Shown here in pieces: positions 30,437 through 39,297 of a stretch of 64,000 nt of DNA. This stretch comes from Thiospirochaeta perfilievii (GTDB taxonomy: Bacteria > Spirochaetota > Spirochaetia > DSM-2461). Within the stretch, counting starts at the first letter, position 1; each line of letters opens with the position of its first letter. The DNA is taken from the NCBI RefSeq assembly GCF_008329945.1, contig NZ_CP035807.1, forward strand, positions 62,001 to 126,000, in the 5' to 3' direction. The notes beneath the pieces were generated by a model. That model saw only the letters and a list, made by a program, of their open reading frames with translations, had not been told where the DNA came from and ran no database searches. Made by a program: the position numbers and the translations under genes.

Positions 30437-31465
30437 CTACTCAGCTGGAGTTTGTTCATCAGGTGTAGCTGTTGCTTCAGTAAGAGGGATTTGCTCTCTC
30501 TTATCAACGGCACTACCTAGCTGATCCATTTTCTTTTGTTCAAGATACTCAAGGATTTGTGAATTACCAAGAGTTCTAAGTTCATTATTTCTTCTTGCCT
30601 CTTCTCTATTTGCAAGAATACCCCATACAGCTTCATCATCAATATCAGATTCAATATCGTCTCTAATAGCCTTATCAAACGTTACATCAATGTTTTTAAA
30701 GTAGGATACAAAATCTCCACCTTTGTGATTAGCTGATTTCTTAACTAATAGACCTTTAAAAATCAAACTATTTGATGTTACAGGATATATAGGAGCTGTA
30801 TTTAACTCTCTATATTTAACTTCTGTAATGTAGTTTGGATTATTCCATGTAAGTGTTCTCCAACCATTAAAGTTTAAGTCTCCAACTGGAACATACTTTT
30901 CATTTCCATCAGAATCTGAAAAAACTAAAATTAGTTTATGTGGGAAATTTCTACCATAAACATTAACAGAAATACTTTTTATAGCCCCAACATTTTTTAA
31001 TACACCATAGTTATTAAATTTATTACCACTTCTAATCCCTTGTTCTAACTCTTCATCTGAAGGCATATACGCAGGAATATCGAAAGGAGGTTTTACAAGA
31101 GCATTGGATTCAAAGCTTTCAGGAAAATGCACCCTTACACCCATAACTTGTTCACCAGCAAATCTCTTTGCTGTCTCTTTTACGATAACAGATTGTGTGA
31201 AAGATAATCTATCATTTGTTACACTTTGTGCTGATTTGTTTAAAACAACATCCCAACTCTCAACAAATAGTGACTCTTTCATCTGAGCTTTTTCATCATC
31301 GGCATACGTTGTTCCTGCGACACTACTATAATCTATAATTGTAGCAGTATTCAGACCATCTTGATCAGCAGTTAAGTCAGCGAAATCAATAATAGTAGCA
31401 GTTTCAGCAAAAACTGTAGTTGTTAATAATAAGGTGAACCCTAGTAGAGCTAATAACCTTTTCAT
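30437..31465 (-). CDS. flaA: Flagellar filament outer-layer protein FlaA
   Basis: A 342-residue periplasmic flagellar sheath protein. The signal peptide MKRLLALLGFTLLLTTTVFA would be cut after about residue 20. The mature protein has the spirochaetal FlaA pattern: 'GVRVHFPESFESNALVKPPF', 'KFNNYGVLKNVGAIKSISVN', 'FNGWRTLTWNNPNYI' and 'LVKKSANHKGGDFVSYFKNI'. FlaA coats the FlaB core of the endoflagellum. The charged C-terminal 70 residues (Glu/Arg-rich, then Pro/Thr) look like a disordered tail. It has an AAAAGGAG ribosome site, its own strong promoter, and a terminator after it. Confidence 0.93.
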   Translation of the reverse strand: MKRLLALLGFTLLLTTTVFAETATIIDFADLTADQDGLNTATIIDYSSVAGTTYADDEKAQMKESLFVESWDVVLNKSAQSVTNDRLSFTQSVIVKETAKRFAGEQVMGVRVHFPESFESNALVKPPFDIPAYMPSDEELEQGIRSGNKFNNYGVLKNVGAIKSISVNVYGRNFPHKLILVFSDSDGNEKYVPVGDLNFNGWRTLTWNNPNYITEVKYRELNTAPIYPVTSNSLIFKGLLVKKSANHKGGDFVSYFKNIDVTFDKAIRDDIESDIDDEAVWGILANREEARRNNELRTLGNSQILEYLEQKKMDQLGSAVDKREQIPLTEATATPDEQTPAE

Positions 31466-31525
31466 GCAGTACTCCTTTTGTCTTTATCTCTTTTATCTCT
31501 AAAAAAAAACTTATTTATATTGAAA

Positions 31526-31553
31526 ATTATACTAAGGATGGAACGTTTGTCAA
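31526..31553 (-). promoter_or_regulatory. Near-consensus sigma-70 promoter of flaA
   Basis: Reading the minus strand: TTGACA, a 16-base spacer, TATAAT, both boxes perfect matches. About 60 bases of leader follow, with an A/T-rich tract (TTTTTTTTT) and AAAAGGAG before the ATG. Nothing resembling a sigma-28 box is seen, so flaA is probably expressed constitutively at high level. Confidence 0.85.
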
Positions 31554-31562
31554 CAATAATTA

Positions 31563-32060
31563 TTATTTTTTCTCATCTAAGTCACCTGTAGGCAACTGAC
31601 TTAAACTAGGTCCAGCCCCTAACAAATTACCATCCACAGTTATAATTACCTCATTGATACTAGAAATATTTCTTAATAAATTCTTTTTAATAAGATTAAT
31701 AGCATCTTCTAATACTATACCACTATTTTCAGTATAAGTAACAGTACTTAGAGGTAAATCTAAATAAGCAGTTTTTCTATTTATATAAAATTTATTATAT
31801 TTATATCCATAATTAAAAATCTTTTTATTAAAAACCGACATTGGACCTAGAAATAACTCATCTAAGATCATTTTAGCCTGATTTAACTTATCTCCATTTA
31901 GACGGATATATCTATCCTCGTATACAATTTTATCCTCTAATTCATAATTAAACATAAATGAAATCTTTGTATATCTATTTTGATTAATTAAAAACAGGGT
32001 TAAACTTAATACAAAACATGTGCCTAAAATAACTGTTGATATTATGTTTTTTCTACTCAT
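31563..32060 (-). CDS. GerMN-domain membrane-anchored protein
   Basis: A 165-residue protein with one N-terminal membrane helix (about residues 7-25) and an outward GerMN domain. The domain shows the 'QAKMILDELFLGP' motif, 'TAYLDLPLSTVTY' and a C-terminal 'INEVIITVDGNLLG'. The family is best known from Firmicute GerM, a peptidoglycan-associated protein, and commonly sits beside cell-wall amidases, as here. It starts 5 bases after the amidase stop and is the last gene before flaA on this strand. Confidence 0.75.
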   Translation of the reverse strand: MSRKNIISTVILGTCFVLSLTLFLINQNRYTKISFMFNYELEDKIVYEDRYIRLNGDKLNQAKMILDELFLGPMSVFNKKIFNYGYKYNKFYINRKTAYLDLPLSTVTYTENSGIVLEDAINLIKKNLLRNISSINEVIITVDGNLLGAGPSLSQLPTGDLDEKK

Positions 32061-32065
32061 TAATA

Positions 32066-33118
32066 CTACCTTATATTTTTTTCATAGGATGAAATAAAAT
32101 CTACTATCCCATTATAGATTCCATCTGCTACTTTCTGCAAGTATGCTGGATCTGATAATCTCTTACCCTCTACTTCATTAGTGACAAAACCAACTTCTAT
32201 TAAAACTGATGCCATTCTTGCATTACGGACCACAAACCATATCTCTTCCTTAAGCCCTCTATTATCACTTACATCGTTAAGGTTTGCATCAAGCCCATCT
32301 AGTATCGATTTAGCAAGCTCCTGACCCTCTAGGGAGTACTCATCCTCTTTTAAAGCATTTACAATTGTTGTTAACTTCTCATTATTGTTAATATTACTAT
32401 CTAAGACATTTCGTCTATAACCCTTAGGTAGATACCACACCTCAAAACCCTGGGCTTTTTTATTTAAAGATGCATTAGCGTGTATTGATATGTAGATAAC
32501 AGCCTCTTTTTTACCAATATCAATATCATTAGCAAGCTCTACACGCTCCTCTAAAGTTAGAAATGTATCATCATTTCTAGTCATTAAAATTTTCTTTTGC
32601 AGTAGATTTTTTCTTAACTTATCCACAACAATGTTAGAGATAGATAGAACAACATCTTTCTCTTTAATATTAAAGTTATCATGATCTCCTATTGCACCCG
32701 AGTCCCGACCACCGTGACCTGGATCGATAATAATTACAGGAATATTATATAAATTCTCATCATTTACTATCTCTTCATGTTTTAAATCTACTTTTAAAAT
32801 TCTATATAACAGTGCTGCAGTATCATTATTTATATATAAATCACCATCTTTATATTTAAAACCTACCCCTGTAATTACTCTATTATTATCAACTACAATA
32901 GAGGAACTTGAAACCATAAAGGATATCGTAGTCTCATTTTTAATAAGAAGACCTCGACTTCTGTAGGGATTCCATCTTACTTCAGCATCACTTTTTTCTA
33001 AAAAATCTCGTAATGATATAGTGTTACTAAAAATTCCAAAGGGTAAGATAAATATTAGTAGTAATAATCTATATTTCCAGTGAATCAAGATAGTATAAAA
33101 CTCCTTGTAATGACCCAT
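32066..33118 (-). CDS. N-acetylmuramoyl-L-alanine amidase (AmiC/Amidase_3 type)
   Basis: A 350-residue exported amidase that cuts the MurNAc-L-Ala bond. Zinc and catalytic residues are visible: His in IIDPGHGGRDSG, Glu in NIKEKDVVL, His in ISIHANAS and the catalytic Glu in LIEVGFVTN. An N-terminal region of about 110 residues (AMIN-like or copper-amine-oxidase-like beta domain) precedes it. The ATG at 33118 lies inside the upstream ATP-grasp gene and lacks a ribosome site. TTG at 33088, with AAGGAG 12 bases before, would give a cleaner signal peptide, so the true start is uncertain. Confidence 0.85.
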   Translation of the reverse strand: MGHYKEFYTILIHWKYRLLLLIFILPFGIFSNTISLRDFLEKSDAEVRWNPYRSRGLLIKNETTISFMVSSSSIVVDNNRVITGVGFKYKDGDLYINNDTAALLYRILKVDLKHEEIVNDENLYNIPVIIIDPGHGGRDSGAIGDHDNFNIKEKDVVLSISNIVVDKLRKNLLQKKILMTRNDDTFLTLEERVELANDIDIGKKEAVIYISIHANASLNKKAQGFEVWYLPKGYRRNVLDSNINNNEKLTTIVNALKEDEYSLEGQELAKSILDGLDANLNDVSDNRGLKEEIWFVVRNARMASVLIEVGFVTNEVEGKRLSDPAYLQKVADGIYNGIVDFISSYEKNIR

Positions 33119-34583
33119 TTATTAATGATAGATAAAAATCATATCCACAGCTGCTATCATCTATAAACTCAACGTTATAATATTCGGACAACTTCTTTAT
33201 TACACTATTTACAGTTCTATATTGTCTATCTTTTTTTCTTGATTTAAGAATTTTATCAATTTTTTTAACGTATATAGTTTTCCCATCTATCTCAACATCT
33301 TCGTCAAGACCTTTTAGAAGTTCTACTTCAAAGTCGTAGGCAGTTGTAGAATCTAGTTGATGGTTGAACAGGAATTTGTCTGTCTCCCACTTATTTGGTT
33401 CTAATCTAATTAGGATATCACTTACAGCCTGTTCTGCAGCCTTAATAGCTCCCTTTCTATCTTTACTTCTAGAGATAATATTACCACACTTCTCCACATT
33501 ATTAATTGGAAAATTAACTTTGTCTCCAACTTCAACATTTATATAAGTATTCATAATATCTTTACTATTTTTTTTAGGTTGTTCTATGGACTTAATATAA
33601 CCTGGTATTGAAATAACAGATCTCTCCGATGAAAACATACTAAGATTATCACCCTCTAAGATTGTTACATCCTGACCTAAAGATAGTTGAATACCACCTT
33701 TTATTAGATCAATCCCACTAGAGTATGGAAATGTCCACCCAGACATATATCCACCAGAGAGCCTGGCTGCTATCTCTCCTATTACAGGACCATTTTCACT
33801 TAGTTTCATATCACCTTTAGCACATCCATAATCTATACCCAGAGATTTTATACCCTTTGAAAAAACCTCTATTATACTCTTTTTATCCTCTTCGCTAATA
33901 TTAGTAGGAATGTTATGTCCCATCTCAACAAAGTATGGAGGAAACTCTATTATCCTATCGGCAAAACCTAAAATATGAACTTCACCATTGATTATTAGAG
34001 CATCAAGGCTAAATTCAGGTCCATCAATATACTCCTCTATAATTGCCCTAGAGGTTCTAGAGAACTTAATTGCATTAAAAACATTATCTTTAAGTTCATT
34101 AATACTGTTTACTCTAACTACTCCCCTAGCCCCCATACTATCAACAGGTTTTACTACTAATGGAAAAGACAGCCCCTTAATTGACATCTCAATATCCATA
34201 TCAGATGAGTACTCTACATAGGATGGAGATGGTATATTAGACTCCTTAAAGCAACTTCTCATTCTAATTTTATCTGTAGCATTAAGTGCACTTTGATATT
34301 TAATCCCAGGTAGGGATAAATTCTCTGTAATCCAAGCAACTGATGATGAAAAGTCTGTTCCTACTGTAAAAACACCATTTAACCCGTGTTTTTCGTGAAA
34401 TTTAGTGGCAACCTCAAGTAACCCATTTTTATCTTTGATATCAATTGGATAAAAAACATCACAGTAATTTTTACCTATAGCATCTGGGTTTCCATCTGCG
34501 CATAAAACAAATAGCCCCATCTCTTTTGCTTTTTTTAAAGCAGGAATCTGCATAATTCCTGCGCCTAATATTAATATGTTCAT
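33069..34583 (-). CDS. ATP-grasp ligase in the glycan operon
   Basis: A 504-residue protein with a pre-ATP-grasp Rossmann domain (MNILILGAGIMQIPALKKA) and an ATP-grasp domain at about 110-310: 'FPLVVKPVDSMGARGVVRV', 'IIEEYIDGPEFSLDALII' and the metal-binding 'GPVIGEIAARLSGGYMSG'. A further 190-residue C-terminal region is unassigned. ATP-grasp enzymes join a carboxylate to an amine or similar nucleophile via an acyl phosphate. Substrate unknown; within this operon I infer acylation or peptide-like modification of a sugar. The ATG overlaps the preceding stop (ATGA). An in-frame TTG 21 bases upstream is less likely. Confidence 0.8.
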   Translation of the reverse strand: MNILILGAGIMQIPALKKAKEMGLFVLCADGNPDAIGKNYCDVFYPIDIKDKNGLLEVATKFHEKHGLNGVFTVGTDFSSSVAWITENLSLPGIKYQSALNATDKIRMRSCFKESNIPSPSYVEYSSDMDIEMSIKGLSFPLVVKPVDSMGARGVVRVNSINELKDNVFNAIKFSRTSRAIIEEYIDGPEFSLDALIINGEVHILGFADRIIEFPPYFVEMGHNIPTNISEEDKKSIIEVFSKGIKSLGIDYGCAKGDMKLSENGPVIGEIAARLSGGYMSGWTFPYSSGIDLIKGGIQLSLGQDVTILEGDNLSMFSSERSVISIPGYIKSIEQPKKNSKDIMNTYINVEVGDKVNFPINNVEKCGNIISRSKDRKGAIKAAEQAVSDILIRLEPNKWETDKFLFNHQLDSTTAYDFEVELLKGLDEDVEIDGKTIYVKKIDKILKSRKKDRQYRTVNSVIKKLSEYYNVEFIDDSSCGYDFYLSLINGSLQGVLYYLDSLEI

Positions 34584-36256
34584 ATAGTTGTTTCCTTTAT
34601 ACAATATATTTCAAACGTATCTCCAAGTTTGAAAACATGACTGATGATCATAAAGAGTCTGTGTAGAAACTTACCCTTTACATATCGTCCAAATCTATTT
34701 GGGTGATGTCCAGTCATCTTGACTTTATATACTTTAAAACCGTACTCTTTCAATACTTTTTTAGCACTTTTAGGGGACCATATAGTAAAATGATCATCAG
34801 GACTATTTTTTAAAAAATTGTTATGACTTTTCTTTGAGCTAATACCTGCAGAGTTAGGAGTAGAAAATGCGAATACACCACCTGAATTTAATAAGTTATT
34901 AACCTGGGTTAAAACATCGTCAATATTTTTAAAGTGTTCAATTACATACCACATAGTTATACAGTCAAAACTACTATTAAAATCAAGGGGTTTAGAGAGG
35001 GGGAATGGGGAGTTTATAGCCTTAAGATCAAGCTCATTATTAATATAATCTACAGCATCCTTTGAGACATCTAACCCATAGGGGGTTAACCCCTTACTCT
35101 CAGCAGCCTTTAAAAAAGGACCATAGGCACAACCTATATCTAACAGGGTGCTTTCTGTTTTTACTTTTTTTAAAATATTATTTATTCTACCAAGGCCAAG
35201 GTTTGATATATGATCAAAATCTTCTAAATATGTTTTACCATACTGCTCTTTATAATCCTCAAAAAAGTAGTTATTTGAGTAAGTAACATCCTTTTGATGT
35301 GCAGCCATATAATCCACCGAACAGTGAAAACAGTGGTAATATGTTCTATTCTTAAACCTTTGAATAGAAGAGTTATTCTTCCTACCACAAATTGGACAGC
35401 CTAAGCTAGAGACCTCTAGATTATAAATAAAGTCTGTTAAACTCTCTTTTATACCAAACTCAATATTATTAAAAAGTTTTTTTGCCTTTTTATAATTTAT
35501 ATTAAACTTGTTATCAAGGGTGTAAAATCCAGCCTTATTACTTAAATCCTGATGATACTGGGTAGGATTGACTAAGGCTACTGGCACACCCTCAGCAGCT
35601 GCCTCGTAGGCTGTTAAACCGAAGGATGTAATAACTAGGTCGTAGTTAGAGAAAATATTTTTTAAATTACTAAGATTCTCTATCTTATTAACCCCAAAAT
35701 CCTTTTTAGTAAAAAGTGGCCCAATTACAGTTGTAACACTGTACTTATCCTTTAATGCATCTACTGCTTTTCTAGTTAGTTGATAGGGGTCCTGTCCCCC
35801 AAAGGAGATAAGAATGTTTTTTAACTCCCTATCTATTGGTTCTTTTATATTTAAATCTAATAGACCAATATTGTTATAATTAGGTCTAGAATCTAATAGG
35901 TTTGGAAGAATATCAATAGTATAAGGGATAAGCTTTCTAGAATCTCCCCCCTCATCGATTGCAACAATAGGAGCTACATTCTTAAGTTTATCATAAAGAT
36001 ATCTATCACTCTCCCTATTATCTAAAACTATTAAATCGATATTATCCGGTATAGTTTTAATTTCACTAAGGGGAAAAACCCTCTCTGAATCAATATCAAA
36101 CTTGTTAGAAATCTCTTTAACAAATTTTGGATTACGATGAATCACATAGACTTTAAATCTTACATCTGAAAAAAAAGGTAATAACCTTTTTATATGTCCT
36201 GTCCCAGCTTTAGGTCCTAAATGTGGATAGAGGACAACTGTTCTTCTTTCAGCCAC
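34580..36256 (-). CDS. PseG-like nucleotide-sugar domain fused to zinc-ribbon methyltransferase
   Basis: A 558-residue two-enzyme fusion. Residues 1 to about 275 resemble PseG/GT-B proteins: an N-terminal 'GPKAGTGHIKRLLPF' loop, 'DLIVLDNRESD', 'ILISFGGQDP' (148-156) and the nucleotide-binding 'TSFGLTAYEAAAEGVPVAL' (210-228). A zinc ribbon with Cys287, 290, 309 and 312 connects to a class I SAM methyltransferase (about 370-510, 'LLDIGCAYGPFLKAAESKG'). PseG removes UDP during pseudaminic acid synthesis, and sugar methyltransferases often carry such a ribbon. The combination points to a methylated nonulosonate-like or other nucleotide sugar; substrate inferred only. The start is GTG, inside the preceding gene. 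Confidence 0.78.
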   Translation of the reverse strand: MAERRTVVLYPHLGPKAGTGHIKRLLPFFSDVRFKVYVIHRNPKFVKEISNKFDIDSERVFPLSEIKTIPDNIDLIVLDNRESDRYLYDKLKNVAPIVAIDEGGDSRKLIPYTIDILPNLLDSRPNYNNIGLLDLNIKEPIDRELKNILISFGGQDPYQLTRKAVDALKDKYSVTTVIGPLFTKKDFGVNKIENLSNLKNIFSNYDLVITSFGLTAYEAAAEGVPVALVNPTQYHQDLSNKAGFYTLDNKFNINYKKAKKLFNNIEFGIKESLTDFIYNLEVSSLGCPICGRKNNSSIQRFKNRTYYHCFHCSVDYMAAHQKDVTYSNNYFFEDYKEQYGKTYLEDFDHISNLGLGRINNILKKVKTESTLLDIGCAYGPFLKAAESKGLTPYGLDVSKDAVDYINNELDLKAINSPFPLSKPLDFNSSFDCITMWYVIEHFKNIDDVLTQVNNLLNSGGVFAFSTPNSAGISSKKSHNNFLKNSPDDHFTIWSPKSAKKVLKEYGFKVYKVKMTGHHPNRFGRYVKGKFLHRLFMIISHVFKLGDTFEIYCIKETTI

Positions 36257-36903
36257 TTAACTACTCTCTCTATTGGAATAATTTCACCATGATACAACTC
36301 ATGAAATAACTTTACAATCCTATTGTAATCATCTGATGTATCAATTGTAACAGAACTACCAGGTAATAAATACTTCTGTGGAGAGTTTCCTTGAAAAACC
36401 TTATAGATATTTTTATTATTATAAATATATGGAGTTACATGCTCCCTATCATATTTCGAAGATGTTTTACTGTGAGCATCAATTAATACATTAGAATTAA
36501 TAACTTCAACTCCTGTTCCTAATGGATTATTCAAAAAACCAGAGTAGTCATTACCCTCTTTATTATGTTTATCGATTAATATATTAGCAAGCTCATATGA
36601 AACAAGTGGGTTATCCCCTGTTGCTCTAACTACCTGAGTCAAGGCGTAATAATTTATTGCTTGGACAAATCTATCTAAGACATTATCTTTATCCCCTATA
36701 AAAATATCATATCCCTGTTTTACTGCTAGAGGTTTAAGATCCTTAAATGAGTCCTCTGTGGTTACTAAAACATACTTATTAGCAGTTATTTTTTTAGCAG
36801 CTTTCATAGCATGCTCTATTACTGTTAAGTTCTCTATCTTTAGTAGAGCTTTTTTAGGTAGTCTTGTAGAATCTAAGCGAACTTGTAGCAGTACTCCCCT
36901 CAT
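36217..36903 (-). CDS. SpsF-like cytidylyltransferase
   Basis: A 228-residue nucleotidyltransferase of the SpsF/CMP-sugar synthetase group (COG1861). The N-terminal signature 'QVRLDSTRLPKKALLKI', 'DVFIG/IFIGDKDNVLDRFVQAI' near 70, 'VVRATGDNPLVSYELANIL' near 95 (Asp metal site) and 'YDREHVTPYIYNN' near 150 are visible. Such enzymes activate an acidic sugar with CTP. The frame overlaps the previous glycosyltransferase gene by ATGA and the PseG-like gene by 40 bases, so these genes are coupled. Confidence 0.82.
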   Translation of the reverse strand: MRGVLLQVRLDSTRLPKKALLKIENLTVIEHAMKAAKKITANKYVLVTTEDSFKDLKPLAVKQGYDIFIGDKDNVLDRFVQAINYYALTQVVRATGDNPLVSYELANILIDKHNKEGNDYSGFLNNPLGTGVEVINSNVLIDAHSKTSSKYDREHVTPYIYNNKNIYKVFQGNSPQKYLLPGSSVTIDTSDDYNRIVKLFHELYHGEIIPIERVVKWLKEEQLSSIHI

Positions 36904-37865
36904 AATTCATCCCAATTTGTTGTTAGATCAGGGGCACTGATTTTAAATCGAAACTTATTTATTTTCACCCACTTTCTAACGGACAAAAATATTTTAATAG
37001 CATCAAATATAGAGCTTCCGGATTTATCATAAAAGTTAAAAAATCGCTTAAGAGGGAGATATCCTATATCGTTTTTAATTTTTATAGAGAGGTTTTTTAA
37101 ACTGTATAATCTATAATACTTATCAGGTGTTATATCCTCAATCTCTCCACCATTTGAATTTAAATATATTAAAAATGATGGATGAACCTTAATACTCTCC
37201 CCCCACATATTTGCCCTTAAACCAAAATCCAACTTCTGCCAATAGTTATTTTTTAGATCGATATCAAACCCACCTAACTGGATAAATTTAGTTTTATTAT
37301 ATAGACCTACATACATATAAGGATATAGAGTTCTTGAATTTTTATTATCAACTAAGGATATAACTTTTAGTTGCTCCTTATTAAAAAGAGGAGTCATTAG
37401 TGTTGGAATAACATCTTTCTTGTTATCCTTTATAATTGGGGTTGTACAAATTCTCTGCTCTTCTAGAATCTTCTCAAAAAGCCTATAGGATATATCCTTA
37501 GAGCTAATATTCATATCATCCCATATTACAAGAACTAACTCACTTAAACTCTCAGAGATTCCAATATTAACCATCTCTCCAACCGAGACTTCATCTTTTA
37601 AAATTAAAAACCTAAGCTCATCATTCTCTGAGCTCTCTTTCTCCAAGTCAAAGTGACTCTTAGCTCCTACTTGAATTGAGATAATTTCATGGATACCTAA
37701 TTTTTTAAGCTCCCCATATAACTCCTTTCGGTAGGGCCTTCCACCTCTACTTAATAATAGTGCTGCAATGGTGTTTACAGACTCCTTCTTTTCCATCTGC
37801 TTTTTATTGCCAATTACCGTATAACTAGTATTAACTCTGTTAAAAGTTGAATGTATAGTACTCAT
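36900..37865 (-). CDS. Divergent GT-A type glycosyltransferase
   Basis: A 321-residue protein with a family-2-like glycosyltransferase region: 'IAALLLSRGGRPYRKELYGEL' (first strand and helix), 'ELVLVIWDDMNISSKDI' (acidic DxD-like metal site), 'GLYNKTKFIQLGGFDIDL' and a Trp/Leu-rich acceptor region. It lacks membrane helices. I start at ATG 37865 (TAGGAAA 8 bases before), which overlaps the spiro-SPASM-like gene by 26 bases; an upstream in-frame GTG at 37895 has no ribosome site. Sugar and acceptor are unknown. Confidence 0.65.
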   Translation of the reverse strand: MSTIHSTFNRVNTSYTVIGNKKQMEKKESVNTIAALLLSRGGRPYRKELYGELKKLGIHEIISIQVGAKSHFDLEKESSENDELRFLILKDEVSVGEMVNIGISESLSELVLVIWDDMNISSKDISYRLFEKILEEQRICTTPIIKDNKKDVIPTLMTPLFNKEQLKVISLVDNKNSRTLYPYMYVGLYNKTKFIQLGGFDIDLKNNYWQKLDFGLRANMWGESIKVHPSFLIYLNSNGGEIEDITPDKYYRLYSLKNLSIKIKNDIGYLPLKRFFNFYDKSGSSIFDAIKIFLSVRKWVKINKFRFKISAPDLTTNWDEL

Positions 37866-39297
37866 CGCATTTCCTACAAAATTCAGAATATTCACAATTT
37901 ATATGATCGTTATAATATTCTCTTTTTTTATCTATTATATTATCTATATCCCCATTAATAATTGACCCTAAGGGAGTTGAGTTATTTATATCATTAAAAC
38001 ATAACAGAACATCACCTGAGGTATTGATATGAAGATCTCTTTTTAAGTGCCAACATGGGAATCTTTTAAGTGGAGATAGATCTGCAACTTTTAATTCAGG
38101 TAGTGTTTTATTATAATCTGAGTATTTCTGTATTATAATATGTTCTGTGAACTCCTGCCAATACCTATAAAAGGGTTCCATATCAACTTCATTTAATTTC
38201 ATTCTTGTGGCTTGAACCCAAACTCTATTTCCCACTGACTGTATCATTTTTTTAGCAAAATCGTAGGCTTCTAACTGTCCTTCACCCCGTAATTCTCTAT
38301 ATAAAGTAGGGTCTAAAGCGTCTAATAAAATTATTAAATGAACCCTAGAATTAGCCTCTAAACAACAGATTAAATCATCACTCCAGCCTATTCCACTTGT
38401 TTCAATATATAGGTCAAAACTATACTTATTTGTTATAAGCTCAACTATTTTAAGAAGATCTTTATGTTTTGTAGGTTCACTCTCTGGGGTAAACGCAACT
38501 GTTACATCATCTGAATATTTTTTTATTTTATCTAAAATAGTATCAATATTTTCCAGGCTTATATCCTGTGGCCCTCCGCTTCTTTTAGGTAGATAGGATA
38601 TATCTTGTACCTGTCCTTTAGTTATTTCCATTGTTATATAACTTGGTTCCTGCATTAATATAATTGGATTATTTTGAAGTATTTTAATTACTGATTTAGA
38701 ATCAACTCCACCTAAATCATATATACGTTTTAATTGATTAAAGTTTCTTTTACTGTCTGAAGTTAATGAGACTCTTAACAATCTTAGATCAGTTTCCGAT
38801 ATCTTTGTCTCTAATTCAAAAGAGTTTATATCTTTTTTGATTATATTAAAGATACTCTCCCTTGTTATATCGACCTTTGAATCCTTAGTTAAAATTTTTA
38901 AGGCACTAAAAATATTTGTATCTAAAATCTCTGGAGTTAAACCGTAGGGATATCCGTCTGCAAAGGTATACTCAGAATAAAATTCTATATGGTCGTTAAA
39001 CATCTCTTTTGATAATTGGCTATCTAAAAGAGGACAGTCTCCATAAAAGTAAAATAGGTTATCGTACTTATTTGAATATGTATAAAATACATCTATTAAG
39101 CTCTCTTCATTCCATGTCTCTTTTATAATACCATTCTCTATATCACTATGTGGTTTTGATAGTAAAAACACTATTTTTTCCACATTTGGTAAACTACTTG
39201 AATAATCTAAAATGTTTTGAAGTTGAGTTTTACCATTAAATTCCTCTTCAAAGTAACTAGATATATCTATTAAGTTAATAATTGCAATATTCTTCAT
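37840..39297 (-). CDS. Spiro-SPASM-like protein with degenerate radical-SAM site
   Basis: A 485-residue three-part protein. Residues 1 to about 170 resemble a cytidylyltransferase fold ('FYGDCPLLDSQLSKEMF', 'FADGYPYGLTPEIL') but lack the R-x-x-STRLP substrate loop. Residues 210-400 align with a radical-SAM barrel: 'PSYITMEITKGQ' replaces the segment that should carry CxxxCxxC, so there is no cluster site, while the 'FTPESEPTKHKDLL' GGEP-like strand remains. A SPASM-type tail keeps Cys415, 433, 468, 474 and 477. I recall a spirochaete-restricted family annotated spiro-SPASM with this layout. It is the first gene of the glycan operon; function unknown, possibly structural or regulatory. Confidence 0.75.
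   Translation of the reverse strand: MKNIAIINLIDISSYFEEEFNGKTQLQNILDYSSSLPNVEKIVFLLSKPHSDIENGIIKETWNEESLIDVFYTYSNKYDNLFYFYGDCPLLDSQLSKEMFNDHIEFYSEYTFADGYPYGLTPEILDTNIFSALKILTKDSKVDITRESIFNIIKKDINSFELETKISETDLRLLRVSLTSDSKRNFNQLKRIYDLGGVDSKSVIKILQNNPIILMQEPSYITMEITKGQVQDISYLPKRSGGPQDISLENIDTILDKIKKYSDDVTVAFTPESEPTKHKDLLKIVELITNKYSFDLYIETSGIGWSDDLICCLEANSRVHLIILLDALDPTLYRELRGEGQLEAYDFAKKMIQSVGNRVWVQATRMKLNEVDMEPFYRYWQEFTEHIIIQKYSDYNKTLPELKVADLSPLKRFPCWHLKRDLHINTSGDVLLCFNDINNSTPLGSIINGDIDNIIDKKREYYNDHINCEYSEFCRKCDEYYTFNF

Follow-up and report, generated by a model that had tools for sequence, protein, structure and literature searches.

Eight minus-strand genes between positions 30437 and 39297 of a 64,000-nucleotide stretch of the Thiospirochaeta perfilievii genome (contig NZ_CP035807.1, positions 62,001 to 126,000; hereafter the window) form an operon that is widely conserved among flagellated spirochaetes and that probably makes an unusual acid sugar decorating their flagella. 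In order, the genes encode a spiro-SPASM protein, a second conserved spirochaete protein, an SpsF-type cytidylyltransferase, a fusion of a PseG-like hydrolase with a methyltransferase, an ATP-grasp ligase, an amidase, a GerMN-domain protein and the flagellar protein FlaA. The best reading of these sequences, which we favor with somewhat better than even confidence, is that the operon supplies the acylation, methylation and cytidine monophosphate (CMP) activation part of a variant flagellin nonulosonate pathway. This would provide a compact candidate gene set, conserved from free-living spirochaetes to a genome of 1.14 Mb and absent from Borrelia-type genomes, in which a specific reaction is predicted for the majority of the enzymes.

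A conserved operon running into flaA

An earlier note, made by a model from the letters of the window, had described seven close-packed minus-strand genes followed by flaA, and open reading frames (ORFs) were found at exactly its coordinates; domain searches agree with its gene names in seven of the eight cases. Taking the longest ORFs, successive genes overlap by 56, 4, 40, 25 and 50 nt and are then separated by gaps of 5 nt and, before flaA, 97 nt. Starts backed by a ribosome-binding site reduce several of these overlaps (for example, to 4 nt with an ATG at 34583 for the ATP-grasp gene). The last three genes encode an N-acetylmuramoyl-L-alanine amidase (Amidase_3, 32066..33118; PF01520, 2e-47), a GerMN-domain protein (Germane, 31563..32060; PF10646, 2.6e-5) and the flagellar filament sheath protein FlaA (30437..31465; PF04620, 1.6e-71). 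As the earlier note had proposed, flaA has its own promoter, a sigma-70-type TTGACA-16-TATAAT on the minus strand that matches the consensus at 12 of 12 positions (31553-31526) and lies inside the 97-nt gap. An intrinsic terminator with a 10-bp stem and a T-rich tail follows 3' of the gene on the same strand (30414-30391).

Conservation of the block across spirochaete genomes, which the earlier note had put forward as a check, was assessed in 39 Spirochaetia loci, several interrupted by contig ends. Because the selection of these loci required a block gene, counts among them are not frequencies. The first four genes are present, collinear and on one strand in 34 of the 39; 29 of these 34 also carry the ATP-grasp gene, 28 carry both it and the amidase gene, and 26 extend to flaA. 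A divergent xseA stands at the head of the block in 22 of the 39 loci, and SpsF, PseG and the methyltransferase form a single protein in nine. The operon is split in two Treponema-type genomes, where the spiro-SPASM, second and SpsF/PseG/methyltransferase genes, the ATP-grasp gene, the amidase-GerMN-flaA genes and a NeuB gene occupy separate loci. No operon component was lost after the split in either genome, one of which measures 1.14 Mb and is probably that of T. pallidum.

The earlier note reasoned that a nonulosonate pathway would need genes outside the window and counted absence of any such synthase from the genome, together with unmodified flagellins and unchanged envelope glycans in a mutant, as refuting it. 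A NeuB-family synthase is encoded elsewhere in the same genome (contig 1:2695977-2697056; PF03102, 9.6e-64 at 2696286-2696972), as are four Maf/MptE-type glycosyltransferases, one with a Maf N-terminal domain, and an adjacent dehydratase-aminotransferase pair. We then considered 198 Spirochaetia genomes, some of them incomplete, counting strong hits only and setting weak paralogue hits aside by E-value. Spiro-SPASM is present in 129, NeuB in 132, ATP-grasp in 126, Maf in 138 and FlaA in 154. All four of the non-FlaA components occur together in 120 genomes, and none of them in 60. Maf accompanies spiro-SPASM in 129 of 129 genomes and NeuB in 132 of 132, and it is found in all 134 FlaA-positive genomes outside family f5. 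The 20 genomes of that family (small and apparently Borrelia-like) have FlaA and lack all four components. In families f9 and f61, FlaA-less members lack all four and FlaA-positive members have them. This tight co-occurrence, along with the NeuB and four Maf genes, supports the earlier suggestion that flagella are linked to a pathway of the nonulosonate type.

The NeuB gene (L004:8974-10056) adjoins serS and lies near a phosphoglucomutase gene, an arrangement shared by relatives (L147, L148) and possibly a conserved neighborhood. A second PF03102 match was rejected as a nonulosonate synthase, since the 628-aa protein reads as a DAHP synthase-prephenate dehydratase fusion. The four Maf-type genes are divergent: one (C1:56530-58089; L140:8531-10090) lies about 4 kb beyond the left edge of the window beside a 485-aa hypothetical protein, and a further site (L139:6066-8976) holds two different ones that overlap.

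Candidate sugar enzymes of the operon

The ATP-grasp ligase (33069..34604, start probably at 34583, minus strand; ATP-grasp_4 PF13535 and LAL_C2 PF18603) is a 511-aa protein without a fused phosphoglycosyl-transferase domain. Its AlphaFold2 (AF2) model, usable for residues 6-403 and with an overall mean predicted local distance difference test (pLDDT) score of 67, most closely resembles the Bacillus licheniformis L-amino acid ligase 3vot. Scanning public genomes, we found homologues outside spirochaetes in Bacteroidaceae, Eubacterium and Anaerococcus at 30-35% identity. The Bacteroidaceae genes neighbor a DegT aminotransferase (49-51% identical to that of T. perfilievii), a Bac_transf phosphoglycosyl-transferase and a hexapeptide-repeat protein, and the order in Anaerococcus is 4,6-dehydratase, aminotransferase, ATP-grasp, phosphoglycosyl-transferase. 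Across these clusters, the ATP-grasp gene follows the aminotransferase gene, in Firmicutes after a 4,6-dehydratase gene as well; the aminotransferases share 44-51% identity with the T. perfilievii enzyme, and the ATP-grasp gene takes the slot that the amine acyltransferase holds in Pgl systems. The linkage to dehydratase, aminotransferase and phosphoglycosyl-transferase is a feature of the non-spirochaete homologues and is not seen in this operon.

In Neisseria, PglB2 is an ATP-grasp/phosphoglycosyl-transferase that makes the 4-glyceramido sugar GATDH, and its distinct domain has been proposed to add glyceryl where acetyl would otherwise go (PMC11130364; PMC6959607). The likeness lies in an ATP-grasp domain and in the proposed transfer of a hydroxyacyl group onto the 4-amine of a trideoxy-sugar (PMC11130364; PMC6959607). 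PglB2, however, is fused to its phosphoglycosyl-transferase and acts in a lipid-linked pathway, whereas here a free ATP-grasp protein stands with nonulosonate enzymes. The setting of the non-spirochaete ATP-grasp homologues, next to genes for a phosphoglycosyl-transferase and a sugar aminotransferase, is reminiscent of PglB2, so the enzyme probably acylates a uridine diphosphate (UDP)-4-amino-sugar. The earlier idea of an amide-forming ligase acting on a sugar amine thus gains independent support from neighborhoods in other phyla. The C-terminal ~100 aa (33069-33400), modeled with low confidence, form an extension that is absent from the aligned Bacteroidaceae and Firmicutes homologues.

The adjacent fusion protein (34580..36256, minus strand) consists of a PseG-like UDP-sugar hydrolase (residues ~1-285), a CxxC zinc-ribbon-like linker and a class I methyltransferase (~300-558; Methyltransf_23, 1.4e-23). 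Both the GxGHxxR motif, with the catalytic His, and the glycine motif of the methyltransferase half show no variation among 15 fusion homologues. The fusion profile matches the solved PseG 3hbm (E 1.1e-5), and the methyltransferase half matches sugar C- and O-methyltransferases. A genome from a different class of the phylum also encodes a full-length fusion of this kind as a solitary gene, unaccompanied by a comparable operon (L062:9200-10918).

The SpsF-type protein (36217..36903, minus strand; CTP_transf_3 PF02348, 3.1e-29) matches the cytidylyltransferase PDB 6oew (2e-20) and conserves the QxRxxSxRLPxK motif. For the second gene (36900..37895, start probably at 37865, minus strand), the GT-A glycosyltransferase label given earlier is not established: the window copy has no Pfam or NCBIfam match, 20 homologues have no Pfam match, and the best PDB profile match, to a TarS-type glycosyltransferase, is marginal (E 0.059). 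We regard it as a conserved spirochaete protein and possible glycosyltransferase, whose alignment contains a W-D/N-D/S motif. A single-sequence AF2 model (pLDDT 34) was uninformative and was not used.

A proposed pathway and its alternatives

From gene content, order, motifs, conservation and co-occurrence, we infer a reaction for each enzyme, an order of steps, an acyl group and a target protein. The unlinked dehydratase and aminotransferase would produce a UDP-4-amino-sugar, to whose 4-amine the ATP-grasp enzyme would couple a carboxylic acid activated as acyl-phosphate, in the role otherwise played by PseH, an acetyltransferase. The product would be methylated by the methyltransferase half of the fusion, possibly on an acyl-group hydroxyl, before the PseG-like half takes off UDP. 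The unlinked NeuB would add pyruvate, SpsF would form the CMP-sugar, and the Maf enzymes would put the sugar on flagellin in the cytoplasm. Co-expression with the amidase, GerMN and FlaA would tune sugar supply to assembly of the periplasmic filament and its sheath.

The Bacillus spore-coat sugar genes spsE-F-G encode the same three enzyme types (NeuB, SpsF and SpsG/PseG); in the spirochaete block, however, the SpsG counterpart has a methyltransferase fused to it, and the genes are linked to flaA. The FlaB glycan of T. denticola is reportedly an N7-acylated nonulosonate with a methoxy-trihydroxyhexanoyl group. Such an N-acylated methoxy nonulosonate would require a methyltransferase together with either a ligase or an acyltransferase. 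The FlaB proteins of T. denticola bear a 450.2-Da glycan on which filament formation and motility depend (PMC9481697); in Leptospira, putative glycans of FlaB1 are located at the core-sheath interface (PMC13144727). Maf-dependent glycosylation in Aeromonas takes place in the cytoplasm, prior to export (PMC4065374). We found no description in the literature searched of the genes behind the unusual flagellar acyl group.

Compared with pseudaminic and legionaminic acid glycosylation of flagellin (Campylobacter, Aeromonas; PseB-C-H-G-I-F plus Maf), the spirochaete system shares a NeuB-family synthase, a cytidylyltransferase, a PseG-like hydrolase and Maf. It differs in that the operon has no PseH, with an ATP-grasp enzyme and a PseG-fused methyltransferase instead, in its scattered genes, and in that PseG and NeuB fall below equivalog cut-offs. 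The last of these differences weighs against the proposed pathway: the PseG half scores 34.8 bits with TIGR03590 (cut-off 153.55) and NeuB 253 bits (curated cut-off 400). Two further points count on the same side. The co-occurrence of components could partly reflect shared loss with flagella. In addition, close orthologues of the aminotransferase (E 1e-80, a threshold too strict to reveal more distant homologues) occur in only 7 of the 198 genomes, and two of these 7 belong to f12, a family without the module; thus, the first two steps (dehydratase and aminotransferase) are not tied to the operon. The dehydratase-aminotransferase pair had been expected to track the operon across the class, but the aminotransferase fails to do so at this threshold. 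The T. pallidum-like genome does encode such a pair, 30-38% identical to that of T. perfilievii.

Alternatively, the operon may build an envelope or peptidoglycan-linked glycan, its flagellar link being mere shared neighborhood with the amidase and GerMN genes. Those two genes do lie between the sugar genes and flaA, and the aminotransferase type is also found in f12, which has neither FlaA nor the module. We nevertheless judge an envelope glycan improbable, given that Maf occurs in every genome with spiro-SPASM or NeuB and in all FlaA-positive genomes outside f5, that 60 genomes lack all four components, and that Treponema-type genomes retain both the sugar genes and amidase-flaA though these are separated. 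It is unlikely, too, that the operon serves a flagellin nonulosonate while its ATP-grasp and methyltransferase enzymes act otherwise, for instance by amidinating, amidating or C-methylating the sugar. Such chemistry would fit the methyltransferase profile, whose matches include 3-C-methyltransferases of sugars (TcaB9, for example) as well as O-methyltransferases, and the many acceptors of ATP-grasp enzymes, the nearest solved of which are L-amino acid ligases; the ATP-grasp neighborhood in unrelated bacterial groups indicates instead a 4-amino-sugar step. That the genes adjoin one another through inherited synteny, without common function, we consider very improbable: xseA is often retained as a divergent neighbor too, but the 4-nt overlaps, the nine loci with SpsF-PseG/methyltransferase fusions and the retention of all pieces after the operon split argue for a shared role.

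Repeated loss of the radical-SAM motif in the spiro-SPASM protein

Absent from the earlier note, and new here, is the repeated loss of the radical S-adenosylmethionine (SAM) cluster motif in the operon-conserved spiro-SPASM protein (37840..39297, minus strand; TIGR04321, 465 bits, cut-off 250). The N-terminal half of this protein is an SpsF-like nucleotidyltransferase domain (hhalign against the SpsF profile: probability 96.9, E 1.6e-10), and a degenerate radical-SAM domain follows. BtrN, a radical SAM dehydrogenase of an aminocyclitol, is the closest solved relative of the radical-SAM region (profile match, E 3e-16); by contrast, the window protein lacks the SAM-cluster cysteines and has an additional SpsF-like domain. 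Where CX3CX2C would be expected, it reads KGQVQDISYLP. The motif is missing in 41 of 97 spiro-SPASM sequences at the position where the others carry it, whereas the C-terminal SPASM cysteines are almost invariant (C415, C433 and C474 in 97 of 97, C477 in 96 of 97). On a quick maximum-likelihood tree built without the CX3CX2C region, unordered parsimony gives 10 changes, or 16 losses if regain is disallowed, counts that are approximate because some branches are weakly supported. The sequence from L047, a spaced variant and one of the 41, was excluded from the tree counts.

That a protein should be kept while its radical-SAM site is lost again and again is surprising in its own right, and we found no mention of spiro-SPASM in the literature searched. 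More speculatively, flagellated spirochaetes may possess a distinct nonulosonate pathway in which the ATP-grasp enzyme loads a hydroxy-acid onto the UDP-amino-sugar before PseG acts, and spiro-SPASM may be a scaffold-like protein, formerly a radical SAM enzyme that worked on nucleotide sugars, its cluster repeatedly lost and its C-terminal metal site kept; we hold this combination to be possible, though doubtful. If true, loss or retention of the SAM cluster would determine lineage differences in the flagellar sugar. A role for spiro-SPASM of the kind associated with ribosomally synthesized and post-translationally modified peptides was set aside in view of its SpsF-like N-terminal domain and because no adjacent precursor peptide was seen (small ORFs were not searched systematically). 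Homologues with motif loss and near-invariant C-terminal cysteines were recorded at L046, L059, L068-L076, L108-L127 and L183-L212.

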